Shown in pieces: positions 3 to 24,662 of a DNA stretch of 25,094 nt. The position numbers and the translations under genes are program-made. Each line of letters begins with the position of its first letter. The stretch's first letter is position 1. The DNA is from a virus, in the IMG/VR virus record IMGVR_UViG_3300037264_000792, positions 1 to 25,094 of that record; one strand, given 5' to 3'. Below the pieces are notes generated by a model that made no database searches, was not told where the DNA came from, and saw only the letters and a list, made by a program, of their open reading frames with translations.

Positions 3-362
3 AGGCTCACAGTGCCGCTCATCGCGCTCGTCGGGCTCGTGGTGCTCGGCTTCAAGGCCGACGACCTGACCGTAGGCTACCTCGACGGGTGGTTCTTCAG
101 CGAGGCGCAGGCACAGGGGCTGTCGGACAAGGTGTCCGAGGTCGAGAAGAAGGTCGACGACATAAGGCAGAAGGTTGACGCGAACCGCGTATCTGCGGTA
201 GAGCGCGAGATATTCCGCCTGCGCATCGAGTCGTGCATGGCGACCGGCGCGCTCAAGACGGCCTATGCCGACCAGACGGCGCAGCTCGTCGCCGAGTGGC
301 GTAGGCTGACCGGGCAGATCGGCAATCCCTCGACCTACGTTGACTGTGAGGACATAGGATGA
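3..362 (+). CDS. Partial membrane-anchored coiled-coil protein (5' end outside window)
   Basis: The reading frame is open to the left edge, so the gene probably begins upstream. The first in-frame start inside the window is a GTG at 12. The visible N-terminus is a hydrophobic stretch (PLIALVGLVVLGF) that looks like the end of a membrane anchor. It is followed by a charged, heptad-like helix (SDKVSEVEKKVDDIRQKVD) and a second helical region with one Cys (RIESC) and another near the C-terminus (YVDCED). The stop overlaps the next start as ATGA. I do not recognise the family. A membrane-anchored helical phage protein could be a lysis-related spanin-like or holin-associated protein, but nothing decides this. 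Confidence 0.6.
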   Translation, partial: RLTVPLIALVGLVVLGFKADDLTVGYLDGWFFSEAQAQGLSDKVSEVEKKVDDIRQKVDANRVSAVEREIFRLRIESCMATGALKTAYADQTAQLVAEWRRLTGQIGNPSTYVDCEDIG

Positions 363-1198
363 ATCAAGAGTACGAGATTCTCCGCTTTGCGTTCTTGCTG
401 TCCGACGTGGACTTCGTGCGGTGGTATTGCAGCAATCACTCGCTGTCGCGCGCCGCGGTCGACCTGGTTGGCAGGCAGCTACCGCTGTATGAGTTCTCCC
501 TCAGCGACGAGGCGTACCTGGCGCACTATGACCACCACGAGGGGAAGTTCTACGCCGAGAGCGCCACGGAGTTCGCCCGCCGCGACTGGAGCCAGGAGGC
601 ACGGGTGCGTGCGATCTGGTCCGCGCTGCTCGACCTCCCCGTGCGCCCGCGTCGCGTGCTGGACTACGGCTGCGCTACGGGGCACGTGAGCGCCGTGCTC
701 GCCAAGAGGATGCCGGACGTGGAGTTCGTCGGGACGGACATCATGCAGCAGGCCGTGGACATGGTGAGAGCACGTGCCGTGCCGAACCTGACGGCCGCGC
801 GAACGAACGCCCTCACGACCGTCGGTCAGTTCGATGCGATCATCTGTGCCGAGGTGCTGGAGCACGTCCGCGATCCGTACACCCTGCTCGACACGCTGGA
901 GCAGGTCTTCATGATGGGCGGCGGGCGCTTCATCATCACGGTGCCGAGCGGCCCGTGGGAGGCCGAGGGCTTCGACGCCAACCCTGGCGGGCGCGAGCAT
1001 CTGCGGCACTGGGGCGCGATAGATCTGTCGGAGGTCTTCATGGAGGCGAAGTCCGTCTACCTGCACTCGCATGTCTCGCGGTTCGGCATCACGGCCGGTC
1101 ACACGGTGTGCGTCGCGCGCGGGCGCGCAGGAGTGGTGAACATGGAGCGTAAGTTGCGGTACTATAGATTAGTCCTTCAGCGATGCGAGGTGGCGTGA
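359..1198 (+). CDS. Class I SAM-dependent methyltransferase
   Basis: 279 residues. The Rossmann-type methyltransferase core starts near residue 99. Motif I is VLDYGCATGH (100-109), the ribose-binding acidic residue is D127 in FVGTD, and the later AEVLEHV segment (164-170) precedes the IITVPSGPWE strand. This pattern is the Methyltransf_11/23 type, which includes sugar, lipid and small-molecule methyltransferases. The first 98 residues are helical and unassigned. The start is set by the ATGA overlap with the upstream stop and by GAGGA at 347-351. The core is clearly paralogous to the middle domain of the fusion protein at 4773-7733: both have LDYGC..GH, EVLEHV..P, a glycine-ended IT.P.G.WE block and NP..R.HL.H. 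That relation suggests both modify related, possibly sugar, substrates. Acceptor unknown. Confidence 0.85.
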   Translation: MNQEYEILRFAFLLSDVDFVRWYCSNHSLSRAAVDLVGRQLPLYEFSLSDEAYLAHYDHHEGKFYAESATEFARRDWSQEARVRAIWSALLDLPVRPRRVLDYGCATGHVSAVLAKRMPDVEFVGTDIMQQAVDMVRARAVPNLTAARTNALTTVGQFDAIICAEVLEHVRDPYTLLDTLEQVFMMGGGRFIITVPSGPWEAEGFDANPGGREHLRHWGAIDLSEVFMEAKSVYLHSHVSRFGITAGHTVCVARGRAGVVNMERKLRYYRLVLQRCEVA

Positions 1199-1626
1199 TG
1201 GACGTCGACAAGATCTTGGAGCAGCGTCGCGCCTTCCAGCGCGCGAAGTTCCACGGGCGCGTCGGCGATCCGGACTATCCGCACGGAGGCGGCGGTGGGG
1301 GCGGAGGTGAAGGGACAGCCGGTTGGGGAAGTACGAGCACGGACAAAGATCGCGGGCCGGCCGAGACAAGATCGGGCAGAAAGGCTGGTAAGAACGGTGG
1401 TCAGGGTAGCTATGATCACGGGTACCTACCGGGGGATTTGGTTCGTGTAAAGAGCCAAATTCAATCCATCGGAGGTAAGGAGGCGCGGATAGTTGATGCG
1501 TCTCCGAGCGGAAAGTTTTTAGTCGTGCAAGTCGGGCGGCAGACGCCGCTTTCTGTAGATGAGTCAGATGTCGATTTGAAAGAGATAGGTCCTGGGTTCT
1601 ACCACGAGAGGTCGATGAGGCCATGA
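1198..1626 (+). CDS. Small phage protein with Gly-rich linker and SH3/KOW-like C-terminus
   Basis: 142 residues from the ATG at 1198. This ATG overlaps the upstream TGA and has GAGGTGG at 1186-1192. An in-frame ATG at 1183 lies before that ribosome-binding site and is less likely. The N-terminus is a short charged helix (DVDKILEQRRAFQRAKF). It is followed by a run of eight glycines (bases about 1284-1307) and a polar disordered linker. The last 70 residues start PGDLVRVKSQIQSIGGKEA and look like a small beta-barrel of the SH3/KOW type. The second half is clearly less GC-rich than its neighbours, so the two halves may have different origins. It sits directly before the protease and overlaps it by four bases. 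Function unknown; a minor head protein is possible. Confidence 0.7.
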   Translation: MDVDKILEQRRAFQRAKFHGRVGDPDYPHGGGGGGGGEGTAGWGSTSTDKDRGPAETRSGRKAGKNGGQGSYDHGYLPGDLVRVKSQIQSIGGKEARIVDASPSGKFLVVQVGRQTPLSVDESDVDLKEIGPGFYHERSMRP

Positions 1627-2804
1627 AGAAAGTCGACATCTGTGACTACCCGATCTTCGAGGTCGGGACGTGGAACAAGATGGAGTTCGCCGAGGCGGAC
1701 ATCCAGGAGATCGCCGACAACTACGTCGCACTGGAGTCGCAGCACCAGGTCCCGCTCAAGCTCGGCCACAACGAGGAGCAGCCGCTGACCGACGGCCAGC
1801 CTGCGCTCGGCTGGCTCCAGAACGTGCGTCGCGTCGGCAAGCAGCTCCTCGCCGACTTCGTCGACGTCCCCAAGGTGGTTAAGGAGCTCATCGCCAAGAA
1901 GAGATTTCGCGCCGTCAGCATAGAGCTGCTGATGGGTCTGAAGCGCGGTGACAAGACGTACAAGTACGTCCTCGACGCCGTGGCGATCCTGGGTGCGGAC
2001 CAGCCTGCCGTCCACACTCTTCCGGACTTGAACCTGTTCCTCGCGAAGCGATCCCTCGCCTATGATGAGGGTGGTCGTCGCGTGCGGTTCGAGCGGCAGG
2101 TAGATCGTAAGATTGTCTTGAATCAGCAACGACCATCAGGAGGTCACATGGACGAGGAAGCAAGAGAGGAGATGCGGCGGGCTGTCGCTGCGGCGGTCGC
2201 CGCGGCCGTCGCTCCTCTGAACACGCAGCTCGACGCGCTGCGGACGGAGAACGCCGACTGGCGAGGCAAGTTCTCCGCGGAGGAGACGAAGCGCATCGCG
2301 GCAGAGACCACGGCCAAGCAGCTCAAGGCTGAGGACGAGGAGCGCGCCAAGGTCGCGAAGAAGAGCGCGGTGAAGATGGCGCGCGACGCCGTCACCGCGC
2401 TGCTGGAGGAGGGCGTCAAGACGAAGCAGATCACACCGGCTCAGCGCGAGAGCGCGGTCGCCATGTTCGGCATCGACGAAGACGAGCGCGTCCTCAAGCT
2501 CGACGTGGACAAGGTGCGGGCGTTCTTCGCCATCCGGGACAAGAAGGTGGTTCAGATGTCGCAGCAGAGCACGGCGAGCGGCGGTGGAGGCGGCGAGGAG
2601 GAAGGGGACCCGGATCGCGTTCACAAGGACGTATTCCAGGAGGTCGACCGGCGCACGCGCCTGGAGATCGCGAAGAACTCCAAGATGACGTACCGCGACG
2701 CCACGCGAGTCGTGTTCGCGCAGGACCCGGAGCTCCACAGGGAGTACGTCCACACGGATCCACCGCGGTTCCAGGCCAAGGCGCAGGCGGGAGGTGAGGC
2801 GTGA
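1623..2804 (+). CDS. Prohead maturation protease fused to scaffold domain (Mu gpI-like)
   Basis: 393 residues. Residues 1-150 resemble the Mu-gpI type of head maturation protease. They include a conserved PLKLGHNEE block with H49, the PALGWLQNV strand and a FRAVSIELL block with S99, which are plausible catalytic His and Ser. The family trims scaffold and capsid proteins during prohead maturation. Residues from about 176 are an Ala-rich coiled-coil helix (EEMRRAVAAAVAAAVAPL) followed by long charged helices, a Gly-Glu linker and a C-terminal helical domain, as expected of a scaffold. A strong internal ribosome-binding site marks a nested scaffold start (separate entry). The gene overlaps both neighbours by four bases and lies just before the decoration and capsid genes. 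The catalytic residues are inferred from motif position, not from an alignment. Confidence 0.85.
   Translation: MKKVDICDYPIFEVGTWNKMEFAEADIQEIADNYVALESQHQVPLKLGHNEEQPLTDGQPALGWLQNVRRVGKQLLADFVDVPKVVKELIAKKRFRAVSIELLMGLKRGDKTYKYVLDAVAILGADQPAVHTLPDLNLFLAKRSLAYDEGGRRVRFERQVDRKIVLNQQRPSGGHMDEEAREEMRRAVAAAVAAAVAPLNTQLDALRTENADWRGKFSAEETKRIAAETTAKQLKAEDEERAKVAKKSAVKMARDAVTALLEEGVKTKQITPAQRESAVAMFGIDEDERVLKLDVDKVRAFFAIRDKKVVQMSQQSTASGGGGGEEEGDPDRVHKDVFQEVDRRTRLEIAKNSKMTYRDATRVVFAQDPELHREYVHTDPPRFQAKAQAGGEA
2138..2144 (+). promoter_or_regulatory. Internal Shine-Dalgarno for nested scaffold start
   Basis: AGGAGGT lies inside the protease coding sequence, immediately before the in-frame ATG at 2148. 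Most genes here have weaker signals, so a seven-base match within a coding region is unlikely to be chance. Confidence 0.7.
2148..2804 (+). CDS. Nested in-frame scaffold protein (internal start in protease gene)
   Basis: An ATG at 2148 is in frame with the protease gene (codon 176) and is preceded by AGGAGGT at 2138-2144, an almost perfect Shine-Dalgarno. Spacing is short at three to four bases. It would give a 218-residue protein beginning MDEEAREEMRRAV, which is the coiled-coil scaffold part without the protease. This is the arrangement known from lambda C/Nu3 and Mu I/Z, where a protease-scaffold fusion and a separate scaffold share a C-terminus. The start falls exactly at the domain boundary, which strengthens the call. 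Confidence 0.75.
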   Translation: MDEEAREEMRRAVAAAVAAAVAPLNTQLDALRTENADWRGKFSAEETKRIAAETTAKQLKAEDEERAKVAKKSAVKMARDAVTALLEEGVKTKQITPAQRESAVAMFGIDEDERVLKLDVDKVRAFFAIRDKKVVQMSQQSTASGGGGGEEEGDPDRVHKDVFQEVDRRTRLEIAKNSKMTYRDATRVVFAQDPELHREYVHTDPPRFQAKAQAGGEA

Positions 2805-3205
2805 GTCACGAGAGCGAGAGCATGGGCTACACGGTACAGGCGGCGAATGATTTTCGTTCGCTGCTGTATCGCGTGGTCGACATCGGCGGCAATCTGTCAG
2901 TGGCGGGCGGCGTCAGTGCGCTCGGCATCGCGCAGACGCGGCCGAACAGCGGGCAGTACCTCGGCGTCGGGTACTTCGGCGTCATGAAGGCGGTCGCGGG
3001 TGCGATCATCACGACTCCGGGCTATCCGCTGACCACGGCGGCGTCCGGCTACGTGATCGCAGCGGTCTCGGGGAGCCACGTCATCGGTCGCTACATCCAG
3101 CCGGGCAGGACTGCCGGTGCGGCGTGCGCGAGCGGTGATCAAATCACCGGGTTGTTCAACTTTGCCAACGGTCGTCCCATCGGGGCCGGCTCCGGCTACG
3201 TGTGA
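2801..3205 (+). CDS. Capsid decoration/cement protein (DUF2190-like)
   Basis: 134 residues. A GTG start overlaps the protease stop as GTGA and is preceded by GGGAGGTGAGG at 2789-2799. A later ATG at 2822 has no good ribosome-binding site. The protein is small, beta-rich and glycine/alanine-rich, with a GVGYFGVMKAVAGAIITTPG block followed by LTTAASGYVIAA and a C-terminal ITGLFNFANGRPI block. This resembles the small head decoration or cement proteins often encoded directly before the major capsid gene, which stabilise expanded heads. Position between protease/scaffold and capsid agrees. Family assignment is by pattern recognition. Confidence 0.72.
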   Translation: MSHESESMGYTVQAANDFRSLLYRVVDIGGNLSVAGGVSALGIAQTRPNSGQYLGVGYFGVMKAVAGAIITTPGYPLTTAASGYVIAAVSGSHVIGRYIQPGRTAGAACASGDQITGLFNFANGRPIGAGSGYV

Positions 3206-3219
3206 GGAGGCAAGCACAC

Positions 3220-4227
3220 ATGAAGCAGACATCAAACATCGTGCTGACTCCCGGCGTATCCTGGGCTCAGTTCGGAGCAACGACAAACCCGCACGTCCAC
3301 GTGGATCAAGTGCTCAGCAACATCGTGCAGGGGTACAGACCCAACGCGAGGATCTGGGACCAGGTCGCGCCGCAGGTCTCGGTCGGCAAGCAGTCGGACT
3401 TCTACCTCGTGCACGATCGCGGCGACGCGCTCCGGCGTGAATCCGCGTTGCGTGCTCCGGGTCGTCCGGCGCGCATCGTCACGCGAGCGATGGGGAGCGG
3501 TACGTTCTTCGCCCTCAACTACGCGCTCAAGATGGCTGTGCCGATCGAGGACGAGGTCAACGCGGACCCCATGTATCGTACCGAGCTCCTGGAGGGCAAC
3601 GCCTTCCATCTCGTGGATCTGCTCGATCTGGACATCGACGCGCGAGTGGCGACCCTCGTCACGACCGTGGCGAACGTCGGTTCGGGCGCGGGCGTGTCGT
3701 CGGCGTGGAGTACCAACAACGGCAATCCGATCGGCGACATGAACGCGGCCATCGACATCGTGGAGGACTCGACGGGCAAGCGCCCGAACCAGGCCACGAT
3801 GGGGAGCAAGGCGTGGCGCTCGCTTCGCAGGCACACCGACGTGAGGAACCTGATCTTCGGCACGAACAACGGCGGCGGTTACCCGTCGACGACGCAGGTG
3901 GCGAACCTGTTCGAGCTGGACAGGATCAACGTCGGCGGGACGTACGAGAACACGGGGAACGAGCTCCAGGGGGAGACGATCTCCGCGGTGTGGGCGGACC
4001 ACGTGGTCCTGCATCGCACGGCTCCGGACGGTCCCGGCCAGCGCGACGTGTCGGCCTTCCGGTCGTTCCGCTGGAATGCTCCCGGCCTGGCAAACATGCA
4101 GGTCGAGCGCCATCCCTTCGACTCGAAGATCAAGGCGCAGGAGATCGAGGTCGGGTACTACCAGGACGAGCGAGTGACGGGGCGGACCTACGCCTATGTC
4201 ATCCGCGCAGTCAACTCGTCGACCTAG
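3220..4227 (+). CDS. Major capsid protein
   Basis: 335 residues from ATG 3220, which has GAGGAGG at 3204-3210 with nine-base spacing. An in-frame GTG at 3202 precedes that signal and is rejected. Length, composition and position right after protease/scaffold and decoration genes fit a major capsid protein of the gpE/Mu-T kind with the HK97 fold. Typical features are an N-terminal FLxNIVQGY-like opening helix (VLSNIVQGYRPNARIWDQVA), the AMGSGTFFALNYALKMAVPI segment, a central helix starting with DLLDLDIDARVATLV, an ATMGSKAWRSLRRHTDVRN helix and a C-terminal YYQDERVTGRTYAYVIRAV strand. It would form the icosahedral shell. A 150-base gap follows, the largest in the window. Confidence 0.85.
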   Translation: MKQTSNIVLTPGVSWAQFGATTNPHVHVDQVLSNIVQGYRPNARIWDQVAPQVSVGKQSDFYLVHDRGDALRRESALRAPGRPARIVTRAMGSGTFFALNYALKMAVPIEDEVNADPMYRTELLEGNAFHLVDLLDLDIDARVATLVTTVANVGSGAGVSSAWSTNNGNPIGDMNAAIDIVEDSTGKRPNQATMGSKAWRSLRRHTDVRNLIFGTNNGGGYPSTTQVANLFELDRINVGGTYENTGNELQGETISAVWADHVVLHRTAPDGPGQRDVSAFRSFRWNAPGLANMQVERHPFDSKIKAQEIEVGYYQDERVTGRTYAYVIRAVNSST

Positions 4228-4377
4228 TCGGGGAAGACGAGTCGGCCGTGGGACTTGGCATATTTCGTCCTTCGCAGTTAACGGAGACGCGCTTCGGCGC
4301 ACAAACTTCGAACGCCGCTGCCGCGATGAGCGCAGCTCCGGACACGGGTAACCGGAAGATTCTAAACTAGAGGAGAG
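4228..4377 (+). other. 150-base intergenic gap after the capsid gene
   Basis: This is the longest non-coding stretch. It holds a small perfect hairpin GCGC-TTCG-GCGC (4289-4300) with a cUUCGg tetraloop but no following T tract, so it is not a clear terminator. A 40-codon frame from a GTG at 4248 to a TAG at 4368-4370 could encode a tiny protein (start VGLGIFRPSQ), but no ribosome-binding site supports it. The gap may carry an mRNA-stability or processing element that lets the capsid message be expressed at higher level than downstream genes; this is inference. Confidence 0.4.
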
Positions 4378-4383
4378 ATGAAG

Positions 4384-4578
4384 ATGTTGCGATCACTGGA
4401 CCCGGAATCGGACTTCGCCAAGCCGAAGGCCGCCAAGGACATGAACGAAGGCGAAAAGGACTACGTCATGCGCGCGACCAAGGACGACGAGACGGCCCTC
4501 GTCAATCGTCTGGCTCGCGAGCGCCATCAGGACGCTCTGCGAGACGCTATGCTCGGCGACAAGAAGGGGGGCAAGTAG
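4384..4578 (+). CDS. Small charged protein, copy 1 of a tandem pair
   Basis: 64 residues from ATG 4384, which stands six bases after AGGAGAG (4371-4377). The ATG at 4378 touches that signal and is less likely. It is highly charged and lysine-rich, with no membrane segment. It begins MLRSLDPESDFAKPKAA and continues KDMNEGEKDYVMR. The next small gene begins MLRPLTPDG and continues RELNDGERHNLQR, so the two share an MLRxLxP start and an NxGE+ block. I do not recognise a family. The position between capsid and glycosyltransferase genes suggests a minor head protein or assembly factor, unproven. Confidence 0.6.
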   Translation: MLRSLDPESDFAKPKAAKDMNEGEKDYVMRATKDDETALVNRLARERHQDALRDAMLGDKKGGK

Positions 4579-4728
4579 ATGCTGCGCCCGCTGACGCCGG
4601 ACGGTCGACGTCCGAAGACTGACCGCGAGCTGAACGACGGCGAGCGCCACAACCTTCAGCGTCAGCGGGACGGCGGGCGCAACCTGCGCACGGAGCGCGG
4701 GACTCAGCGAGATCGACGTGAGAAGTAG
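4579..4728 (+). CDS. Very small basic protein, copy 2 of the tandem pair
   Basis: 49 residues. The ATG at 4579 directly follows the TAG of the previous gene and is in the same frame, with a G-rich run at 4566-4571 as a possible ribosome-binding site. The protein is strongly polar and arginine-rich (MLRPLTPDGRRPKTDRELN at the start, RTERGTQRDRREK at the end). Similarity to the gene before it (MLRxLxP, NxGE+) suggests a duplication followed by divergence. It could also be expressed by stop readthrough of the upstream gene, since the frames match and only the TAG separates them. Function unknown. Confidence 0.5.
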   Translation: MLRPLTPDGRRPKTDRELNDGERHNLQRQRDGGRNLRTERGTQRDRREK

Positions 4729-4772: not shown

Positions 4773-7733
4773 ATGCAGTTCGTGTTCATCTGTCCTGGCA
4801 TGCCGTTCAATGGCGACTTCATTCAGCGCGGGCAATCGCTCGGCGGCTCAGAGACCGCCTGCTACTACGTCGCGCGCGAGGTGGCGCGCCTAGGGCATCG
4901 CGTGCTCCTGTTCACAAACCAGCGCGACGCCGGCGGAAAGCATGACGGAGTGGACTATGCCTGGGCCGGCCCGCAGAGCGAGGCGTTCCCAGCGGGGGAG
5001 TACGCCCAGTCGTTCGCCAGTGCCACACCGACGGACGTCCTCGTCGTGCAGCGCGCCACCGGCCTGTTCGCGGCCCCGCACGCGGCGTCGGTGGCGTTCT
5101 GGTGGCTCCATGACCTCGCTCTCGTGCGCGCGGGGCAGGCGGCCAGGGTCGATCTGTTTCAGTACGACGGTGTGCTGGCGGTCAGTGAGTGGCATCGCAG
5201 TCAGATCGCGGAGGTATGGAACCTCCCGGTTGATCGCATCGGCGTGGTGCGCAACGCCGTTGATGGAGCTCTCTACACGGGCGAGGGTCAACCGCCGCGG
5301 CGCGGCCTGCGGCTGCTATACCAGTCTAGGTTCGAGCGTGGCATCGACTACCTCGTCAGGCCGGGCGGCATCATGGATCGCCTGGCGGACAGGCGGCCGG
5401 ACGCCATCCTCACTATCTGCGGGTATGACAATCAGCCGGACCATACGCGCGGGTACTATGAGGGCGTCATGGCGCGCGTGAAGAAGATGCCGAACGCCCG
5501 CGTCATAGGGCACCTCGGCAAGGTCGAGCTGGCCAGGCTGCAGGAGTCACATGACCTGATGGTCTATCCCAGCACGTTCGAGGAGACGAGCTGCATCAGC
5601 GCCATCGAGGCGCAGTGCGCCGGCCTCCCGTTCCTCGGGTCTGCGGTCGGGGCGCTGTCGGAGACGTGCGGTGACGAAGGCGGAGCCAGGCTCCTGCCGC
5701 TGATCGAGGGTCGGGCGGACGAGGACGCCTTCGTTGAGTTCCTGGCTGGCGTCGATGGAGAGACCCTGAGCGTCATGCGAGACGGGCAGCTCGCCGCGGC
5801 CGGGCGCGTGTCGTGGGAGGCGTCGGCGCAGGAGCTCGTGCGTCTGGCCACGGAGGCCATGGAGCACCGACGTTCGAACATGTTCTCCATGATGCGCACG
5901 ATGCTCGACAGGTCGGACACGATGCTGGCGCGGCAGTTCGCGCGCACGGTCAGCTCAACACCAGACGTTCATGGTTGCCTGCCCGAGATAGCAGAGCTTG
6001 ATGCTGCGTATTCCTTCGTGAAGGATCCAGCCGCGCACTATGACAGCGACGAGGCCGTGGCTGACATCGAGCGCGGCGGGCTGGACGTCACGCAGAGTCT
6101 GCGGTTCATGGAAACCTCCAGGCAGATCATGAAGGGCAGGCCGAGCAATCTGCTGGACTACGGCTGCCAGAAGGGACACTATCTTTGGTCGCTGGTCATG
6201 GGCAGCGAGCGGACCGGGCTGCGCTACACGGGCATTGACGTATCACCGCGCGTCATTGACTGGGCGCGCAAGAACTGCCGGCCGGTCGGCGCAGAGATCA
6301 GGTTTGAGGTTGGTGACGTCATGCAGCCGGACTTTGATTACAATAAGTACGGCAAGTTCGACGCGCTGCTGCTGGGTGAGGTGCTGGAGCACGTCGAATC
6401 GCCCGAGCTGCTCATGCAGAGGCTCGCGCCGCTCCTGATGGACGGCTGCCACGTGGTCATCACGACGCCCTACGGAGACTGGGAGGGCAAGGACTACGCG
6501 CGCAACCCGCGCGCGCCCAGATACCATCTTCACCACTTCGAGCGCGCGGACATGGAGGATTTGTTCGGCGGGCAGGAGGAGTTCCTAGTAGTCGCGGTGC
6601 CGGCCGGGCGCAGCGATCGCAGTCCGCTGGGCTCGCTGGTCACATCATTCGTGTATCGTGAGACCGCCGGGATCGTCAAGTCGCTGGACTGGTATCGCAA
6701 GATGTCGGTCATGGTGCCCAGGCAGACGCTCAGCTACTGCGCCATCGTGCGAAACGCGGAGCACGTCATACTGCGCAGCCTCATGTCGGTCAACCTGGTC
6801 GCCGATGAGTTCATCGTGGCGCTGGACAAGTCCACGACGGACGGGACGCGCGCGATCCTGGAGAGATTCCACGATCAGCACGCCGGGTACAGGCGCTTTG
6901 AAATCATTGATGCCGAATCTCCGTTGAACATCGGGTTCGATGAGGCGCGCAATCGGACGGTCGACCTGGCCCGCGGAGACTGGGTGCTGTGGCTGGACGC
7001 CGACGAGGAGCTGACCCACGCTGAGCGGGCGTTTCGGTACTTGCGCGGGAGCGTGTTCGATGGATACGGGGTCGCCCAGCACCACATGAGCGCCGATCCG
7101 GTGGGGGTGCTCACCACGGACTGGCCGGTCAGGATCTTTAGGCGCGCCCCGTACCTCAGGTTCAGCGGTGTGGTCCACGAGCACCCGGATGACACGGAGC
7201 GGCCGAACAGCGGCCCGCGCGCGCCCGCGCAGGTGATCGACGTCAACATCATGCACCACGGCTACACGACGGAGGAGGTGCGCCGCAGTAGGTTCCAGCG
7301 CAACCTTCCACTCATTCGCCGTGACAGGGCTCAGAATCCGAGGCGGCTTCTCGGCAAGATGCTCTGGCTGCGAGACCTGGCCCACGTCTGTATGTTCGGA
7401 CTGGAGCAGACGCGGGGGATGGTCACGGAGGAGATGCTGGCCACGGCTAAGGAGGGTATCGAGCTGTGGGAGGATCTGCTGCGTGAGTCCGAGAAGTCTC
7501 AGATGGCGGCCAGGATGCTGCGAGACGGGCTAGAGTTCTACAGCACCTTGGTTGGGGTGCTTGGTAGCGGCTTCGAATTTCAGGTGCAGATGCACGCTGC
7601 ACGTGATGCGCCGGCCAAGCTGGACGCCGGGCAGAAGAGAATGGGCAGGTTCCTCAATCGCGAACACCTGAACGGATACCTGCGAACGTGCGTCGATGAG
7701 CAGGTTCAGCCCATCGTGAGCAGGTATTTCTAA
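4773..7733 (+). CDS. Trifunctional fusion: GT4 glycosyltransferase - SAM methyltransferase - GT2 glycosyltransferase
   Basis: 986 residues, ATG 4773 with GGGAGA at 4760-4765. Residues 1 to about 400 are a GT-B, family-4-like glycosyltransferase: an N-terminal LGGSETACYYVAREVARLGH block, VSEWHRSQI, RNAVDG at the linker, and the EX7E donor-binding motif E271-E279 in EETSCISAIEAQ. Residues about 440-640 are a class I methyltransferase with LLDYGCQKGH (motif I, D462-H469), TGIDVS and EVLEHVESP (536-544). Residues about 650-860 are a GT-A, family-2 glycosyltransferase: CAIVRNAEHVILRSL, DKSTTDGTRAIL and the metal-binding DADEE at 742-746. The last 120 residues are helical. All three active-site signatures look intact. 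Such enzymes transfer sugars from activated donors and methylate the product. Lying inside the structural operon, it may decorate virion proteins. Alternatives are host surface glycan or phage DNA modification. Confidence 0.88.
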   Translation: MQFVFICPGMPFNGDFIQRGQSLGGSETACYYVAREVARLGHRVLLFTNQRDAGGKHDGVDYAWAGPQSEAFPAGEYAQSFASATPTDVLVVQRATGLFAAPHAASVAFWWLHDLALVRAGQAARVDLFQYDGVLAVSEWHRSQIAEVWNLPVDRIGVVRNAVDGALYTGEGQPPRRGLRLLYQSRFERGIDYLVRPGGIMDRLADRRPDAILTICGYDNQPDHTRGYYEGVMARVKKMPNARVIGHLGKVELARLQESHDLMVYPSTFEETSCISAIEAQCAGLPFLGSAVGALSETCGDEGGARLLPLIEGRADEDAFVEFLAGVDGETLSVMRDGQLAAAGRVSWEASAQELVRLATEAMEHRRSNMFSMMRTMLDRSDTMLARQFARTVSSTPDVHGCLPEIAELDAAYSFVKDPAAHYDSDEAVADIERGGLDVTQSLRFMETSRQIMKGRPSNLLDYGCQKGHYLWSLVMGSERTGLRYTGIDVSPRVIDWARKNCRPVGAEIRFEVGDVMQPDFDYNKYGKFDALLLGEVLEHVESPELLMQRLAPLLMDGCHVVITTPYGDWEGKDYARNPRAPRYHLHHFERADMEDLFGGQEEFLVVAVPAGRSDRSPLGSLVTSFVYRETAGIVKSLDWYRKMSVMVPRQTLSYCAIVRNAEHVILRSLMSVNLVADEFIVALDKSTTDGTRAILERFHDQHAGYRRFEIIDAESPLNIGFDEARNRTVDLARGDWVLWLDADEELTHAERAFRYLRGSVFDGYGVAQHHMSADPVGVLTTDWPVRIFRRAPYLRFSGVVHEHPDDTERPNSGPRAPAQVIDVNIMHHGYTTEEVRRSRFQRNLPLIRRDRAQNPRRLLGKMLWLRDLAHVCMFGLEQTRGMVTEEMLATAKEGIELWEDLLRESEKSQMAARMLRDGLEFYSTLVGVLGSGFEFQVQMHAARDAPAKLDAGQKRMGRFLNREHLNGYLRTCVDEQVQPIVSRYF

Positions 7734-7750
7734 CACAGGAGTAACAGACC

Positions 7751-8197
7751 GTGTCATCCATGACGAACGCACTTGAGACTAACCTGGGACTTTTGATCTT
7801 CCAGAACGCGGACCTTGCCAACGTCGGCGACGCGGCGGGCCTGCAGAACTCCGCGGCGGCGGGCAGTACGCAGCTCGCCCTCGCCACGTCGGCACTGACA
7901 GACGCGGATACGCTGCTCACGGCGACGGAGGTCGCGTACACGGGCTACGCGCGACCGCTCCAGGCTCGCAACGCCACGGACTGGACGAGTAGCGCGGATA
8001 CGATCAGCAACGGCACGCTGGAACAGTTCGGCGAGATGACGGCGGGCGGACCGGACACGGTGGTCCACGTCGGCCTTGGGCTGCTGGGATCGGGCAACCA
8101 GCTCGATCTTCATCAGGACCTCGCGGCCGATCTCGTCATCAACAACGGCGTCAATCCGCAGTTCGCCATCGGCGCGCTGGACTGGGTGTTCGCATAA
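7751..8197 (+). CDS. Phage tail-fibre-like/virion structural protein
   Basis: 148 residues. GTG start at 7751 with AGGAG at 7737-7741. The layout is N-terminal ALETNLGLLIFQNADLANVG, then DAAGLQNSAAAGSTQLALAT, a TEVAYTGYARPLQARN block, and a beta-rich C-terminus ending NNGVNPQFAIGALDWVFA. This is the pattern of a common small phage protein (short helix that contacts the virion, AAYTGYAR strand, C-terminal beta sandwich) often annotated as tail fibre or structural protein. It likely forms a small virion appendage. The assignment is from recollection of the family pattern, and the attachment site, head or tail, is unknown. Confidence 0.65.
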   Translation: MSSMTNALETNLGLLIFQNADLANVGDAAGLQNSAAAGSTQLALATSALTDADTLLTATEVAYTGYARPLQARNATDWTSSADTISNGTLEQFGEMTAGGPDTVVHVGLGLLGSGNQLDLHQDLAADLVINNGVNPQFAIGALDWVFA

Positions 8198-11284: not shown

Positions 11285-12505
11285 ATGGCACTGCGCGTAG
11301 GCATAGGGCGCGTCGGGATCGGGACGGTCGGCCACGCCGGGCCCGCGGCCGCACCGCCGGTCTATCCGGTCTTCATCCTCCGCGATCACCTGCCGGAGTT
11401 AAGCCCGACTGAGCTATTCTATCCGGAGCTACTGGCTCGACGTCACATTGTCTCTGTTTCGGCCGGCGTCATCAACGATATGGTTGCGTCCGGGCTGCTA
11501 TCCATCTCCGGTGCGGCGGACTTGGACGCCATTGGGCAGCTCCTGGCTTCTGGGCTCTTGTCTGTAACTGGCGCGGCGGACTTGGACGCGCGTGGCCGTC
11601 TGGACGCGCTCGGGGTGCTGTCGATATCTGGTGCGGCAGACCTGGACGCGGCGGGGCAACTCGTGGCGGCTGGCGCTCTGATCATCGTAGGTGCGGCGGA
11701 CCTGGACGCCATCGGGCGAGTGCTCGCGGTCGGCAGCCTATCGATCACCGGTGCTGCGGACCTTGATGCGCCGGGCCGACTGGATGCGCTAGGCGCGCTG
11801 TCCATCAACGGTGTCGCTGACCTTGATGCCGTCGGGCGAATGCTGGCCGTGGGGGCGCTCGTTATCTCCGGAGTGGCCGACCTTACTTCTGGCAGCACGG
11901 TAGACCTGTCAGCCTCAGGCTCGCTGGCGATAACGGGGAGCGCAGATCTAGACGCCGTCGGCAGAGTAACGGCAGCCGGCAACCTAACCATCGTCGGCGC
12001 GGCGGATTTGGATGCGCGCGGCCGTCTGGACGCACTCGGGGCACTGTCGATCTCGGGGACAGCGGACCTCGACGCCATCGGTCGTCTGGTCGCTGCTGGC
12101 GCACTCGTGATAGACGGCTCCGCCGTGCTCACTAGCGTAGACATGAATGCTAACGGTAGCCTGTCGATCTCCGGGGTCGCCGAACTGGATGCCGTCGGTC
12201 GACTGGTCGCGGCCGGCGCGCTGACAGTGACGGGAGCGGCGGACCTAGACGCGGTCGGCAGACTGGAGGCGTCAGGGGCGTTGGTCATCGCTGGTGTCGC
12301 GGACCTGAACGCAGTGGGGCGACTGGAGGCGGCGGGTCTTCTCCAGATCGTCGGCAGCGCTGAGATTATCGACGGCAACGCCATCAAGTACGTGGTCGCC
12401 ATCGTGGTCGGTGCCGAGATGCTGCGGGTGATCACCGGAGCTCAGAGCTTGACGGTCGTCGACACTGAAGTGAAGAGCCCCATAGAGACTGACACGGTGC
12501 ACTAG
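11285..12505 (+). CDS. Repeat protein of about fifteen 20-residue units (predicted beta-solenoid)
   Basis: 406 residues, ATG 11285 one base after the previous stop. Residues 1-67 are a unique N-terminus, starting MALRVGIGRVGIGTVG, with a Pro-rich segment. Residues 68 to about 361 are tandem 20-residue units with consensus AxGALSIxGAADLDAxGRLx: fourteen complete units plus one partial. Units 7 and 11 vary in length (22 and 19 residues) and lack the DAxGR part. The alternating LxIxG and ADLDA pattern suggests two short strands per unit, as in a beta-solenoid or beta-roll. The last 40 residues are unique (VVAIVVGAEMLRVITGAQSL). Low-complexity Ala/Gly/Leu repeats of this style occur in phage structural proteins. 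A rod-like appendage is my inference; many units carry Ser/Thr in the LSI/LTI strand. Confidence 0.72.
   Translation: MALRVGIGRVGIGTVGHAGPAAAPPVYPVFILRDHLPELSPTELFYPELLARRHIVSVSAGVINDMVASGLLSISGAADLDAIGQLLASGLLSVTGAADLDARGRLDALGVLSISGAADLDAAGQLVAAGALIIVGAADLDAIGRVLAVGSLSITGAADLDAPGRLDALGALSINGVADLDAVGRMLAVGALVISGVADLTSGSTVDLSASGSLAITGSADLDAVGRVTAAGNLTIVGAADLDARGRLDALGALSISGTADLDAIGRLVAAGALVIDGSAVLTSVDMNANGSLSISGVAELDAVGRLVAAGALTVTGAADLDAVGRLEASGALVIAGVADLNAVGRLEAAGLLQIVGSAEIIDGNAIKYVVAIVVGAEMLRVITGAQSLTVVDTEVKSPIETDTVH
11486..12367 (+). repeat. Coding tandem repeat, 60-bp period
   Basis: The 20-residue units are encoded by a 60-bp repeat. Segments such as gcggacttggacgc recur once every 60 bases (for example about 11516, 11576, 11636 and 11696). 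Units 5-8 and 9-12 match best as blocks of four: each block starts with a unit ending in GRLD, its third unit loses the DAxGR part after ADLTS/AVLTS, and its fourth is ASGSL/ANGSL. This implies past duplication of a 240-bp block as well as of single units. Confidence 0.75.
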
Positions 12506-12516: not shown

Positions 12517-13248
12517 ATGGCAGAGGTTAGACGCGTAACGCTAGGGTCCACGTTCAAGGTGACGTGGATCAACTCTGGGGCAGTCGCCAGCCCCATCACG
12601 TTCAACATCATGAGCGGCTCTGAGTCGCTGGTGTCGTCGTACTCTGGAGTGGACAGCGGCAACGGGCATTACTACGCGGACGTGGCCGTCAGGACTCCCG
12701 GGTTGTACCAGGGTCGCTGGTTCGCGACGATCAGTGCCAACACCTACATCAACGGGGAGTGGTACGCGGCGTTCCCGGTCGACACCGACCAGCCCGGACG
12801 ATACATCACGTGGGATGACGTCGTCCACAGGTTCGTCGGATTCGGTGACGTCGCAGACGCGCTCAAGGCTGCGAGCCACTATCTGTCGTACGCCGAGGCG
12901 TACATCGACGGGAGACTCGGTGCGACGTTCACCATTCCGTTCAGCAACAACAACCAGACGGTGCGCGACCTCGCCATCGACGTCGTCTACGCGCGCTCCA
13001 TCCGAGGTTCTCTCAACGAGGAGTACAAGAACCTCTGGGCTGAGGTCAACTCGCGCATAGGGGCGCTGGTGGGCGGCACCGAGGTCATGGTGACGAACAG
13101 TGGGACTATCGTGGCTGAGGAGCAGAGCACTCCCGCGTGGAGCAGCACTGAGGAATACCATCCGTTCTTCGCAGCCACGTTGCCGCACATCGATATGGTG
13201 CCGAGTAGCTCACACATGCAGGCGGAGTACGACGAACGTGGCCTCTAA
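12517..13248 (+). CDS. Head-tail connector (gp36/DUF1320-like) with N-terminal Ig-like domain
   Basis: 243 residues, ATG 12517 with GGAGAAG just upstream. Residues 1 to about 88 form a beta-rich module (RRVTLGSTFKVTWINSGAV ... GHYYADVAVRTPGLYQGRW) resembling an immunoglobulin-like fold. From about residue 94 the sequence fits the gp36/DUF1320-type adaptor: YITWDDVVHRFVGFGDVADA, an amphipathic helix HYLSYAEAYIDGRLGA, then VRDLAIDVVYARSIRGSLNE and LWAEVNSRIGALVGG. Adaptors of this group sit beneath the portal and join head to tail. It heads the series of completion, terminator and tail tube genes, as expected. The Ig-like domain on the adaptor is unusual. It overlaps the next gene by 11 bases. 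Confidence 0.75.
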   Translation: MAEVRRVTLGSTFKVTWINSGAVASPITFNIMSGSESLVSSYSGVDSGNGHYYADVAVRTPGLYQGRWFATISANTYINGEWYAAFPVDTDQPGRYITWDDVVHRFVGFGDVADALKAASHYLSYAEAYIDGRLGATFTIPFSNNNQTVRDLAIDVVYARSIRGSLNEEYKNLWAEVNSRIGALVGGTEVMVTNSGTIVAEEQSTPAWSSTEEYHPFFAATLPHIDMVPSSSHMQAEYDERGL

Positions 13249-13696
13249 AACGCCCGTAGAGTTCCGTCCACCCCTGCCGCAGGTCGTCGCGGCGCTGAAG
13301 AAGCGCGCGCGGGAGATGCTGGACAGGTCCGTGCCGAATGCGCAGGTCGCGGTGGTCCTCGATCGGTGGGTCCAGGCGAACTTCCGCGGTGAGGGCGACC
13401 TCGTCGGCGGGTGGACACCGTTCGCGCGCGGAGGCCGATGGGTGCCGGGCGTAGGGCTGGACACCTCTGCGAGGTTGCTCCAGGACACTGGCGCGCTGCG
13501 CGCCAGCTTCCGCGCGTTCTGGGACAGCGACGTGGTAGGCATCGGGTCTGACCTGCACTATTCGGCGTACCACGAGGACGGCACGAACTTCCTTCCGCAG
13601 AGGCGCATGCTGCCGCGCGAGGACGACGTTCGTGACGAGGTGTTGGGCGTCTACCAAAGTTACTTCGACAAGCTAGCCAGGAGACCGTTGTGGTAG
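13238..13696 (+). CDS. Virion morphogenesis/tail completion protein (Mu gpG-like)
   Basis: 152 residues from GTG 13238, which has GGCGGAG at 13221-13227. Longer upstream extensions in this frame lie inside the previous gene and are rejected. The pattern LDRWVQANFRGEGDLVGGWT, then RLLQDTGALRASF, then VGIGSDLHYSAYHEDGTNF and PQRRMLP is the signature of the Mu gpG / phage virion morphogenesis family, which completes the head-tail joint. Position between the adaptor and terminator genes fits this role. The last residues overlap the next gene by seven bases. Confidence 0.85.
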   Translation: MASKTPVEFRPPLPQVVAALKKRAREMLDRSVPNAQVAVVLDRWVQANFRGEGDLVGGWTPFARGGRWVPGVGLDTSARLLQDTGALRASFRAFWDSDVVGIGSDLHYSAYHEDGTNFLPQRRMLPREDDVRDEVLGVYQSYFDKLARRPLW

Positions 13697-14151: not shown

Positions 14152-15135
14152 ATGCCATACGGACACGATTCGGTCGTCGGCATCGCGATGCAGAACTCAT
14201 ACGGCACCGCGGCAACCGCCGTTGGCTCCTTCCACCAGATCCCGCTCCTCAACGAGGAGTTCGGTCTGGTGCAGGAGGAGCTCATCTCGCAGAACTTGAA
14301 CGGCCGCTTTGATCAGGGAGACAGCTACAGCGGCAAGCGGCAGTACGGAGGGAGGTTGGAGTGCGAGGCGCAGCCGAAGGCGCTCGGGGCTCTCCTGACC
14401 GCCGCCATCAATGATCCGACGGTCATCACCAGCGGCAGCGTTAAGGGACACACATTCGTGCCGCGCACCGGGGACTGGGATCGTTTATCTCCCGGTAGAC
14501 CGTTCACTTACTACAAGTGGCTGGCTGAGCCGGTGAGCAGTAGCGCGCAGTTGTTCTATGATCTGTTCGGCGGAAGGTTCGAGTTTCAGCTCAGCGAGGG
14601 TGGGTTCGCGATGGCTCGCATCGCCGCGACTGGCGGAAAGACCGCCGTGACGGCGAGCCTGGCCCTGACGACCGACGTCGGTCGGCGCTGGCCATGGAAC
14701 CAGTCGAGCGTGTCGCTGGCGGGCACGGCCGTCTCGGTCATCAGCGATCTGTCGCTGGTCCACGACGAGGGGATCAACCCCAAGTGGTACCTCGATGGCT
14801 CGCTCAGCGCCGGCCGTGGCAGGCGTGAGCAGTTCCGAACCGTGCGCGTTAGCGGTACGCTCCTATTCGAGTCGCAGGTTGAGCTCGATAACTTCAAGAA
14901 CGAGACCACGCAAGCACTGGTATTCACGCTGCAGGACACGACGCTGGCCATCCAGTCTGGTTACTTCAACCAGCTCCAGATCAGCCTCCCGTCGTTCCGC
15001 TGGACCGAGTGGCCGATTCCGATTCGCGGTCCCAACGCACTTGAGGTCGCGTTCGGCGCACGGGCGCAGTACAACGTAGGCAGTGGGCATGCCGTGAGGT
15101 ACACGCTGCAGAACACCTTCGTCGCGTACACCTAG
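14152..15135 (+). CDS. Major tail tube protein
   Basis: 327 residues, ATG 14152 with AGGAG at 14137-14141. The N-terminus (VVGIAMQNSYGTAATAVGSF) followed by IPLLNEEFGLVQEEL matches tail tube proteins of siphoviruses and Mu-like phages, where a Y-G-T motif and a following Glu-rich strand are typical. The rest is beta-rich with an internal repeat-like strand arrangement (RLECEAQPKALGALLTAA; RVSGTLLFESQVELDNF; GYFNQLQISLPSFRWTEWP). Hexameric rings of this protein stack to form the tail tube. It is longer than minimal tube proteins of about 150-200 residues, and lies directly before the chaperone pair and tape measure. Confidence 0.82.
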   Translation: MPYGHDSVVGIAMQNSYGTAATAVGSFHQIPLLNEEFGLVQEELISQNLNGRFDQGDSYSGKRQYGGRLECEAQPKALGALLTAAINDPTVITSGSVKGHTFVPRTGDWDRLSPGRPFTYYKWLAEPVSSSAQLFYDLFGGRFEFQLSEGGFAMARIAATGGKTAVTASLALTTDVGRRWPWNQSSVSLAGTAVSVISDLSLVHDEGINPKWYLDGSLSAGRGRREQFRTVRVSGTLLFESQVELDNFKNETTQALVFTLQDTTLAIQSGYFNQLQISLPSFRWTEWPIPIRGPNALEVAFGARAQYNVGSGHAVRYTLQNTFVAYT

Positions 15136-15559: not shown

Positions 15560-15729
15560 GAGGGATCGGAGTCCACCAGTGGCTGGAGCTGTACAGAGTG
15601 TTCGAGCGCACCACCAGGTGGCCGGACGACGGGCCGTACCTTCGCCAGCCGTGGATCACCGTCAGGATCTTCCAGGTGATAGAGCATCAGCTTGACAAGG
15701 AGGCGAGGATAGATGGCAAACGTAGTTGA
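15167..15729 (+). CDS. Tail assembly chaperone G-T, -1 frameshift product
   Basis: The -1 frame stays open from the slippery run near 15481 to TGA 15727-15729 and encodes clear protein: WYRGAEVDSFDVGGIG, VHQWLELYRVFERTTRW, then LRQPWITVRIFQVIEHQ. No start codon serves this frame in a suitable place, and it fills the otherwise empty 15560-15712 interval. Shifting at 15481-15488 would give about 187 residues. Synthesis of a longer GT protein by -1 frameshift is conserved in siphovirus tails, with the T part recruiting the tail tube subunits. The last 17 bases overlap the tape measure start. Confidence 0.82.
15481..15488 (+). promoter_or_regulatory. Probable -1 ribosomal frameshift site
   Basis: GGGGGAAG, read G GGG GAA G in the zero frame, allows the P-site tRNA to re-pair perfectly in the -1 frame; the A-site pairing is only partial. 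A short hairpin could form six or fewer bases downstream: GAGC (15493-15496) with GCTC (15501-15504), or GCGG (15495-15498) with CCGC (15504-15507). It is close in form to the lambda GGGAAAG site but not identical. The -1 frame has to be entered in this part of the gene, and this is the best run. Confidence 0.6.
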
Positions 15730-17824: not shown

Positions 17825-18489
17825 CGACGGAGGTCATACACTTCCCGGCCGGCATCTATCCCAGCGTGCAGCGCCTGTCACCGGACGTCGGGCCAGGTCA
17901 GTCGGTCACCGAGTCTCCGTTCACCGGGGCGCAGACGGTCAACACCTTCCGCGGCGCGGAGCGGTGGCGGCTTGAGTTGCAGCTTGAGGACCTGACCGGC
18001 GATGATCGCGCTGAGATGATGGCGTTCGTGACGAGGCTGCGCGTGGCGCATAACACCTTCATCATCATCAATCACACTAACCCGCAGCGAGGGCAGGCGT
18101 TCTTGTGGGCCACTGCGAACTGCTTCCAGATGAACACGAATTCTACTGGCTCCTCCCACGGTAGAATCTGGTTCGCCAATGCCGGAGTGAGTCCGACCAG
18201 CCTGATTCCGTTCAAGGCCGGCGACTTCTTCTCGGTCAACTCCATGCTCAAGATGACCCTGGTCGATATGCCGCCGTTGGACGGCGGGCACATCGGGTCC
18301 GTGTACTTCTGGCCGCCGCTGTTCGCGAACGTGACCTCTGGAACCAGGGCGCAGGTCTACTCTGCCTGCGGCGGCTTCCGCATGATCAGCGCCGTGCCCA
18401 TTACGACGGACCCGCCGCTCTACCGTACCAGCCTCAGCATCTCGGCCATCGAGCGAGTCAATTCCTCCTACGTGAGTGGCTTCCTGTGA
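17821..18489 (+). CDS. Minor tail protein (distal tail-like)
   Basis: 222 residues. A GTG start overlaps the tape measure stop as GTGA. The sequence is beta-rich throughout: VIHFPAGIYPSVQRLSPDVG, FTGAQTVNTFRGAERWRLEL, then a helix DDRAEMMAFVTRLRVAHNTF and strands to MLKMTLVDMPPLDGG and SVYFWPPLF. Genes immediately after the tape measure commonly encode distal tail or minor tail proteins that close the tube and carry the tip. The FxGAQTVNTFRGxERW block resembles such proteins in proteobacterial siphophages. I assign it by position and pattern. Confidence 0.68.
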   Translation: MTTEVIHFPAGIYPSVQRLSPDVGPGQSVTESPFTGAQTVNTFRGAERWRLELQLEDLTGDDRAEMMAFVTRLRVAHNTFIIINHTNPQRGQAFLWATANCFQMNTNSTGSSHGRIWFANAGVSPTSLIPFKAGDFFSVNSMLKMTLVDMPPLDGGHIGSVYFWPPLFANVTSGTRAQVYSACGGFRMISAVPITTDPPLYRTSLSISAIERVNSSYVSGFL

Positions 18490-19103
18490 GCGCGCGGGCG
18501 TTCGACGTCGGCGCTGGTGGGTACGGGGCGGAGGGCACCGAGCTGGTCGTGTTCGCGTTCTTCGACTTCCAGGGCGACCCGAAGTTCCTGCACTCGTCCA
18601 TCGGGTACATCACGCACGGCGGCGAGGACTGGGAGGGCGTCGGTGCGCTGGGGACTATGGATGCCATCAAGGAGCCTATGGGACTGTCACCGACTCGGGT
18701 TAGGCTGTCGCTGTCCCCGGTGGCCGGCGAGTACCTCAATTCCGCTATTAACGAGAACACGTGGGGAAGGCTCTGTGAGCTGTACGTCGGTAACTGGGAC
18801 GGCGTCGCGCTCGTACGAGATCCAGAGCTGCTCGTACGCGGCAAGATGGGTCCGCCCGAGGTTAGCCTCGGTGAGCCTGATAGCAGCATCGGCATCACGG
18901 TCGAGGACGTTCGAGCGTCACTTGATAGAGTCAATGGATTACGCGCGACGTTGCTAGATCATCAAGCGGAGCACGCTGGCGATACTTTCTATGCATGGCT
19001 GCCGGAGATGATGGATCATAGGTTCGTATTCAATGGGCAGAACTTCGGCATACGGGGCGGCGCTGGACGTCCGAGCATACCGGGGTCTCGCCCCATCCCA
19101 TGA
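18486..19103 (+). CDS. Minor tail/tail-tip protein (DUF2163-like)
   Basis: 205 residues. The GTG start overlaps the previous stop. The N-terminal half is beta-rich (ELVVFAFFDFQGDPKFLHSS; GYITHGGEDWEGVGALGTMD). It contains the LLVRGKMGPPEVSLGEPDSS strand pair and an ITVEDVRASLDRVNGLRATL segment. It ends with LLDHQAEHAGDTFYAWLPEM, a motif typical of DUF2163-type tail proteins (LxxDHQxxxxGDTFFxxxPxM), which belong to the tip complex next to the NlpC/P60 and J-like genes. Probably a lambda-L-like role linking tip to tube; no metal-binding cysteine cluster is visible. Confidence 0.7.
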   Translation: MSARAFDVGAGGYGAEGTELVVFAFFDFQGDPKFLHSSIGYITHGGEDWEGVGALGTMDAIKEPMGLSPTRVRLSLSPVAGEYLNSAINENTWGRLCELYVGNWDGVALVRDPELLVRGKMGPPEVSLGEPDSSIGITVEDVRASLDRVNGLRATLLDHQAEHAGDTFYAWLPEMMDHRFVFNGQNFGIRGGAGRPSIPGSRPIP

Positions 19104-19492
19104 GTAGGCGCTTGCAGACTGTCCGCAGCGTGAACGAGGCGGCGCAGGTGCGCTTCGAGTGGGGTGTGTTCGACTGCTGCGCGTTCTGTGCCCGCGTGGC
19201 AAAGAGAGTTTCGAATCGATCATTCGAGCTGCCAAAGTACGTCAGTCGTGAGGAGGCGGAGAAGCTCATCACGGAGGCGGGCGGACTGCGAGCATTGGTC
19301 GGTGACGTCACAGACTTGGAACCGACTGACGATGTCACTGCCGCGATGGACGGCTCTCCCGTGCTGGCGAGGATCGAGTGCGGCGAGACGCTAGGTGTGA
19401 GACTGGGGGACAGGATCGTGTTCAAGACAGCGCGCGGCCTGGCCTGGCTTCCCATTGACGATCCGGGCGTGGTCTGCGCGTGGCCACTGTGA
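19100..19492 (+). CDS. DUF6950-like, NlpC/P60-related tail protein
   Basis: 130 residues, ATG 19100 overlapping the previous stop as ATGA. The key pattern is RFEWGVFDCCAFCARVAKRV near residues 16-36: a WG-x-x-DC motif with the Cys at the start of a helix, as in NlpC/P60-like cysteine peptidases and the phage DUF6950 family. It continues with a small REEAEKLITEAGGLRALVG helix and LGVRLGDRIVFKTARGLAWL. The obvious downstream catalytic His is not visible, so peptidase activity is doubtful. The gene fits the lambda K position, between minor tail and host-specificity genes. It may be a degenerate peptidoglycan-active or purely structural tip component. Confidence 0.72.
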   Translation: MSRRLQTVRSVNEAAQVRFEWGVFDCCAFCARVAKRVSNRSFELPKYVSREEAEKLITEAGGLRALVGDVTDLEPTDDVTAAMDGSPVLARIECGETLGVRLGDRIVFKTARGLAWLPIDDPGVVCAWPL

Positions 19493-19502
19493 GGAGGACC
19501 AC

Positions 19503-24017: not shown

Positions 24018-24662
24018 ATGAAGTTAGATCAAGCCCGGTACTACGACGACCAGTATCGCTCAGGCCAGTACGCCGACCTGTACCGCGAGCATTCACCGGA
24101 GGCGTCGGCGGCGGACGATTGGCACGTCGGGCTCGTGTGCGCCGCCCTGACGCTGAGGCCGGCGCGCGGGCCTGTGCTCGACCTCGGCTCCGGCCGCGGG
24201 TTCTACCTGCGCGCGTGGAGTGACGCCGGGTTCGACGTGCGAGGGCGGGACATCAGCGCGGTGGCGGTCGAGGATTCGCCGTACCGCGACGTCACGGACG
24301 TGGGCGACGCCGCCGACCTGTCGCAGTACGCAGACGACCAGTTCCAGCTCGTGTTCTCGTCCGCGCTGCTGGAGCACATGACCGACGACCAGGTCAGCAA
24401 GCTCGCGCGCGGGGCGCTGCGCGTGGCTCGCTACTCGGTGCACTACATTGCGCACGAGCGCGGCGCGGACCCAGGCCACATCAACATCAAGACGCGGGAC
24501 GAATGGCTGCGGTTCTTCTACAATACTGGGGTGCCGTTCCCGTTCTCGGTGGTGAACCCGCTGTTCGTTACGAGCCCGCTGCTCATACTCTCGCGGGACA
24601 TCCCGATCACGCTTAGCACGTCTATAGCCACGGCAAACAACGCAATGGAGAAGCGCACATGA
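24018..24662 (+). CDS. SAM-dependent methyltransferase (type 11)
   Basis: 214 residues, ATG 24018 with only a weak AAGG upstream. The core has motif I VLDLGSGRGFYLRAW (from about residue 54), the acidic RGRDIS segment, an acidic DVGDAADLSQYADDQFQLVF strand and SSALLEHMTDDQVSKLARGA. This is the Methyltransf_11 fold. It is a different branch from the two LDYGC-type methyltransferases in the window. It ends overlapping the endolysin start as ATGA. Unusually, it separates the tail-tip gene from the endolysin. The acceptor is unknown; virion glycan, lipid or small molecule are all possible. DNA methylation is unlikely, since no DPPY/NPPY-type motif is visible. Confidence 0.82.
   Translation: MKLDQARYYDDQYRSGQYADLYREHSPEASAADDWHVGLVCAALTLRPARGPVLDLGSGRGFYLRAWSDAGFDVRGRDISAVAVEDSPYRDVTDVGDAADLSQYADDQFQLVFSSALLEHMTDDQVSKLARGALRVARYSVHYIAHERGADPGHINIKTRDEWLRFFYNTGVPFPFSVVNPLFVTSPLLILSRDIPITLSTSIATANNAMEKRT

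Follow-up and report, generated by a model that had tools for sequence, protein, structure and literature searches.

To our knowledge, glycosylation of the virion has been reported for few tailed phages. In mycobacteriophages it reportedly depends on separate glycosyltransferase genes, not on one fusion. In these phages the C-terminal ends of both the capsid and the tail tube subunits carry the glycans (Freeman 2023, as cited in PMC12619734). The A064R protein of chlorovirus PBCV-1 carries two glycosyltransferases and a SAM methyltransferase in one polypeptide, and builds the methylated end of the capsid N-glycan; a separate chlorovirus methyltransferase, A061L, adds a further methyl group to the same glycan (PMC9614988). 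WsaE, involved in the S-layer glycan of Geobacillus stearothermophilus, is similarly trifunctional, and the methyl group caps the glycan (PMC2943079). A064R and WsaE show that one polypeptide can hold two glycosyltransferases and a capping methyltransferase. The enzyme GmaR puts N-acetylglucosamine on flagellin (PMC9638930).

The sequence analysed here, called the window, is the IMG/VR record IMGVR_UViG_3300037264_000792, 25,094 bases long. It hosts a gene in which a GT4 glycosyltransferase of GT-B fold, a helical linker, a class I methyltransferase, a GT2 glycosyltransferase of GT-A fold and a C-terminal extension follow each other in this order (Table 1). Translation and Pfam searches bear out the sequence-only reading, according to which one uninterrupted frame of 986 residues holds an EX7E GT-B enzyme, a methyltransferase with intact motif I and a GT-A enzyme with a DADEE motif. 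The frame consists of 986 codons and one stop, has a GC3 of 0.83, and would arise by chance with a probability of about 1e-13 at the local base composition. Glyco_transf_4 (residues 24-164), Glyco_trans_1_4 (181-307), Methyltransf_23 (454-598) and Glycos_transf_2 (658-749; PF00535, 3.2e-13) all score above the curated cut-offs. The AlphaFold2 model that had been proposed as a check of the three domains was built on 42 relatives; mean pLDDT is 89.8, no residue falls below 50, and pTM is 0.88.

Table 1. Features of the window discussed in the text
Feature	Position	Strand	Evidence
Stand-alone methyltransferase	359..1198	+	Methyltransf_23; paralogue of the methyltransferase domain of the fusion
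Head maturation protease / scaffold	1623..2804	+	PHROG 976, 1.4e-32
Small head protein directly before the capsid gene; second candidate acceptor	2801..3205	+	PHROG 673
Major capsid protein, HK97 fold; likely acceptor	3202..4227	+	PHROG 1005, 1.2e-50; AF2; VIA-align
C-terminal NSST of capsid protein (-VNSST), candidate acceptor tail (inferred)	4213..4224	+	Ser/Thr count
GT4-linker-methyltransferase-GT2 fusion, 986 aa	4773..7733	+	Pfam; 98 distinct full-length relatives; AF2
GT4 (GT-B) domain, residues ~1-365	4773..5867	+	Pfam; profile matches; VIA-align
EX7E of GT4, codons 271-279 (E271/E279)	5583-5609	+	Motif
Helical linker, residues ~366-450; D382, Y423, R444 near-invariant	5868..6122	+	Model; alignment
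Class I SAM methyltransferase domain, residues ~451-625	6123..6647	+	Methyltransf_23, 1.6e-16
Methyltransferase motif I, D462-x-G464-x3-G468	6156-6176	+	Motif
GT2 (GT-A) domain, residues ~645-880	6705..7412	+	Pfam; profile matches
DADEE of GT2 (D742-A-D744-E745)	6996-7010	+	Motif
VHEHP motif of GT2	7173-7187	+	Motif
C-terminal extension of the fusion	7413..7733	+	AF2 model
Fibre-like protein, Pfam Gp80 (podophage GP4 fibre), 18 bases downstream of the fusion	7751..8197	+	PF23140, 1.4e-8
Connector-like proteins	12517-13248, 13202-13696		
Tail tube	14152-15135		
Tape measure	15713-17824		
Second stand-alone methyltransferase, end of tail genes	24018..24662	+	Methyltransf_11, 1.3e-9

Each domain has the features of its class: the double Rossmann fold and EX7E motif of GT4 enzymes, the motif I and Methyltransf_23 fold of class I SAM methyltransferases, the Glycos_transf_2 domain and DXD motif of GT2 enzymes. 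In profile comparisons the nearest solved relatives of the GT2 domain belong to the polypeptide-acting group, namely GmaR (97 bits), SunS (80) and ThuS (68), the next family reaching 37 bits over half of the domain; similarity to the three spans nearly the whole domain, HE motif region included. The fusion is no SunS equivalog, as it scores 40 bits over residues 652-857 against the NCBIfam model TIGR04195, which has a 350-bit cut-off. The GT4 domain is nearest by profile to ManT (7qsg), GlgM and MshA, and its nearest solved relatives are mostly saccharide or small-molecule enzymes. By fold, SdgB, PimB', TarM and MshA are tied at a VIA-align Z of about 20, in an output which covers mostly the GT4 part, so that folds missing there are uninformative for the rest of the protein. 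PDB relatives of the methyltransferase domain include both WbdD and a D-glucose O-methyltransferase, along with many others. Acceptors vary among relatives of the GT4 and GT2 domains, and specificity is not fixed by fold similarity.

Compared by description, the fusion and A064R both feature two glycosyltransferases and one methyltransferase in a viral polypeptide. A064R, in contrast, is made by a eukaryotic virus, is 638 aa long and works on a pre-built N-glycan. Its domain order is GT-GT-MT, the first glycosyltransferase being GT-A and the second of a novel family, whereas the Pfam order of the phage protein is GT-MT-GT. The stand-alone methyltransferases of the window might act similarly to A061L. 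WsaE shares with the fusion one methyltransferase and two glycosyltransferase domains, but these are ordered MT-GT-GT, the acceptor is a lipid-linked polymer and the product belongs to a bacterial surface layer. GmaR, SunS and ThuS differ in being fused to neither a GT4 nor a methyltransferase, and the mycobacteriophages (as cited in PMC12619734) are alike in being tailed phages with virion glycans, but are other phages with other hosts. In domain order, virus group and the GmaR-type GT2 the phage protein differs from its functional analogues A064R and WsaE. No description of the phage arrangement was found in the literature searched, which consisted mostly of non-subscription papers.

The closest phage parallels were met in phages with a PHROG 1328 capsid, in which GT4-GT2 (L078-L080) or GT2-TPR-GT4 (ctKR88) fusions adjoin the capsid gene. 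The same two glycosyltransferase types are fused at the same place, and among solved glycosyltransferases GmaR is again nearest to their GT2 parts; however, the internal methyltransferase is missing, the capsid family is another one, and in ctKR88 the order is reversed. Beside capsid genes, the pair of glycosyltransferases thus turns up again, differently ordered and lacking the methyltransferase. In ctKR88, an uncultured podovirus, a row of glycosyltransferase and methyltransferase genes lies behind the capsid gene (L067:774-12000), under misleading gene names such as gtA and has synthase. On the bacterial side, a GT2 gene adjoins a GT4 gene in a flagellar locus of Dethiosulfatarculus sandiegensis that includes flagellin, FliW, FlaG, FliD and MptE-like genes. 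A flagellin motif search of other bacterial GT2/GT4 loci, carried out with crude patterns that missed the L103 flagellin too, found none, and the flagellar link therefore comes from one locus.

The proposed location of the gene within a virion operon holds, as the major capsid gene lies on one side of the fusion and the genes for connector and tail on the other. Genes for a methyltransferase, head protease, small head protein, capsid protein and a 66-aa frame precede it; a GP4-fibre-like protein, further virion proteins, connectors, tail tube, tape measure, tail proteins and another methyltransferase follow. The small head protein is kept beside the capsid gene in most related loci. The product of the upstream methyltransferase gene is 33% identical to residues 421-600 of the fusion (E 8.7e-19), and that of the downstream one has a weak NCBIfam match, below cut-off, to the oligosaccharide methyltransferase MftM. 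Promoter and terminator scans gave no signal exceeding shuffled expectation. Some other features of the window deserve mention. Two small adjacent look-alike frames of 66 and ~49 residues (LRSLDPE..MNEGEKDYVMR and LRPLTPD..LNDGERHNLQR) occupy the interval between capsid gene and fusion (4378-4727), and the first is found also in L003. A protein of 406 residues (11285-12505) contains many GAADLDAxGxLxAxGxLxIxG-like repeats with haemagglutinin-repeat-like matches, and is possibly a beta-helical fibre. The end of the large tail-tip frame (23001-24000) has a G+C of 0.52, against 0.61-0.67 elsewhere, and may be an acquired receptor-binding part.

The suggested search for the same three-domain order in phage genomes yielded 98 distinct relatives of full length, all on contigs from IMG/VR and GTDB, and none among 50,697 GenBank phage records; 72,556 plasmids similarly gave none. 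An alignment was required as query, since the fusion as a single sequence matched no viral or genome contig; the best 80 of 326 relatives from the viral search were kept. The capsid protein retrieved 62 viral contigs. In most of these the fusion comes after the capsid gene, complete copies being 28-59% identical over the full length, L003 the closest; loci without the fusion stop within ~3 kb of the capsid gene. A major capsid gene of HK97 fold lies upstream of the fusion in 93 of the 98 relatives, at no more than 1.5 kb in 85. Of the 61 relatives found through the fusion itself and not through the capsid search, 56 have the capsid gene upstream, and four of the other five start less than 400 bases from the contig start. 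On bacterial contigs, fusion and capsid gene are neighbours in Desulfobacterales, SAR324, Deltaproteobacteria (one on a 982-kb contig), Zixibacteria and others. The cultured phages RDJL6, Ottawa, Jenst, RcapMu, Bise and TJ1, related by capsid protein, have no annotated glycosyltransferase behind the capsid gene; EZ-2018a, another such relative, is an unannotated record. In Ottawa, the large unknown protein gp102, encoded two genes past the capsid gene, does not look like a glycosyltransferase by eye.

Separate GT4 genes accompany some fusions, between capsid gene and fusion in L069 (9842-10921) and L071 (8909-9997), and ~1 kb before the fusion in L200. A form that is apparently split occurs in L048 and L049 (~18000-20900), where a GT4 gene and a stretch resembling a methyltransferase lie ~8 kb past the capsid gene; the GT2 part may fall outside the sequence examined. 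L076 was discarded as a variant architecture. Its capsid gene is in two frames, followed by a GT4 joined in one frame to a penicillin-binding protein (transglycosylase, transpeptidase; 90-4365), and the arrangement probably stems from recombination or from the decay of a prophage.

The residues of each of the three active sites are nearly invariant, and purifying selection acts on them. Over 99 aligned proteins, position 271 of the GT4 is E or D in 99, E279 is kept in 97 and R186, E188 and R189 in 99; for methyltransferase motif I the counts are 94 (D462), 98 (G464) and 99 (G468), and for GT2 99 (D742) and 98 (D744). In all three domains, dN/dS is 0.03-0.17 in the closest pairs with estimable dS, dS being saturated in many comparisons, and 0.17-0.24 relative to L003. 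Distances between fusions follow those between capsid proteins (Mantel r 0.74, 93 loci), as do tail tube distances, equally (r 0.74), and two changes explain presence and absence of the fusion on the capsid tree. In L057 (15947-19927) the HEHP motif of the GT2 domain is interrupted by a 297-residue intein (residues 854-1150; Intein_splicing 7.5e-17, HNH and NUMOD3 motifs). Inteins usually sit in essential conserved motifs. Conserved sites, low dN/dS, co-inheritance with the capsid and the intein together argue that the fusion behaves like a core head-module gene rather than a passing acquisition. An intact conserved frame, three folds, their active sites, a fixed place behind the capsid gene and co-inheritance with head genes are all observed.

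A phage-encoded glycosyltransferase lying in or near structural genes is what virion glycosylation systems feature, and glycosylation of a virion protein is well supported by the context. As to which protein, the C-terminus of the capsid is the leading but unproven candidate, a lead and not a result. At least two Ser or Thr residues, often as NSST, are found among the last four capsid residues in 71 of 97 fusion-bearing phages, against 3 of 84 relatives lacking the fusion (Fisher p 3e-24). The association is phylogenetically confounded, since it goes back to one or two events on the tree of capsid proteins, and it does not count as independent evidence; the Fisher result is discounted as such because the fusion changes only twice on the tree. 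The C-terminus is flexible in the AF2 model of the capsid protein, which VIA-align matches to 3bjq (Z 28.6) and to encapsulins (~18). In the encapsulin EncA the C-terminus is on the outer surface (PMC11866011). The deeper fusion-bearing phages L054, L056 and L074 have capsids without the Ser/Thr tail, and the acceptor may differ there.

That the sugar goes to another part of the virion, such as the small head protein, the downstream fibre-like proteins or the tail tube, is rather unlikely. The fibre-like gene next to the fusion and the conservation of the small head protein beside the capsid gene in many loci would fit it, and mycobacteriophages glycosylate the tail tube as well as the capsid (PMC12619734). 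In L006, L013, L029, L039 and L040, however, a connector directly follows the fusion, with no fibre genes between, and only the capsid has mostly a Ser/Thr-rich tail: in fusion-bearing loci 73% of the capsid proteins have one, compared with 26% of the small head proteins, 15% of the tail tube proteins, 0% and 4% of the connectors and 6% of the proteases.

Targets outside the virion proteins appear far less plausible. The hydroxymethyl handle for DNA glycosylation is typically made by thymidylate-synthase-family enzymes. Of 21 long relatives (the window itself does not have the length for such a judgement), 3 have a gene of this family, whereas essentially all have the fusion. There are known phage glycosyltransferases that hypermodify DNA (cited in PMC12619734), but the gene belongs to a late head module and the relatives of its GT2 act on polypeptides; that the fusion glycosylates hypermodified bases of phage DNA is accordingly very improbable. 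Alteration of host surface glycans, by lysogenic conversion or superinfection exclusion, would have a precedent in phage glycosyltransferases that alter host serotype (PMC12619734). Yet the fusion has no predicted membrane helix (maximum 19-residue hydropathy 1.52), unlike the membrane-anchored glycosyltransferases of Gtr-type O-antigen conversion, the gene is placed among late head genes, and a tyrosine integrase is found in only 1 of 21 long relatives, all of which leaves this activity with very little likelihood.

The fusion is, in our view, quite probably a trifunctional enzyme with which the phage decorates its own head as this is assembled; GT2 would prime, GT4 extend and the methyltransferase cap. 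GT2 would attach the first sugar to a head protein, on a side chain that most likely lies in the Ser/Thr tail at the capsid C-terminus; GT4 would add a second sugar with retention, and the middle methyltransferase would O-methylate the product, capping the glycan, to which the two stand-alone methyltransferases may contribute further methyl groups. Reactions, reaction order, acceptor, sugars and donor are all what we infer. Sugar donors are probably supplied by the host, since a PF01370 epimerase is found in only 2 of 21 long relatives. The sequence-only reading had one polypeptide build a methylated glycan on a virion protein, and that part fits the genomic context, the active sites and the correlation with capsid distances. 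It also had GT4 prime the virion protein, the methyltransferase act on that sugar or an intermediate, and GT2 add the last sugar. The N-terminal, strongly conserved GT4, and a fold to which no other GT4 is a closer match than SdgB, an enzyme that glycosylates proteins at Ser-Asp repeats, are in keeping with this order. It is nonetheless probably wrong, and we regard it as unlikely: the GT4 profile is nearest to ManT, GlgM and MshA, and because the nearest solved relatives of GT2 glycosylate polypeptides, priming of the protein is more likely the task of GT2 and extension that of GT4, an order that the bacterial GT2-GT4 gene pair in a flagellin locus also favours.

On their own capsids, phages carrying the fusion probably assemble a small methylated sugar. 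We suggest, tentatively, that a large, uncultured tailed-phage lineage might routinely coat its capsid with a short O-methylated glycan, by means of one dedicated enzyme and on an exposed capsid C-terminal tail. This enzyme would be a counterpart in prokaryotes of the chlorovirus capsid-glycan enzyme, put together independently from glycosyltransferases of flagellin type. The enzyme is compact, and its three activities and acceptor are accessible with one purified protein and one capsid peptide. If true, virion glycosylation would be a core trait of many environmental phages and not an oddity, the head-module gene being present in essentially all members of a broad capsid clade, and capsid modification would be tied to bacterial flagellin glycosylation. 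Speculatively, methylated glycans could protect the virions from proteases, receptors or surface-binding proteins.
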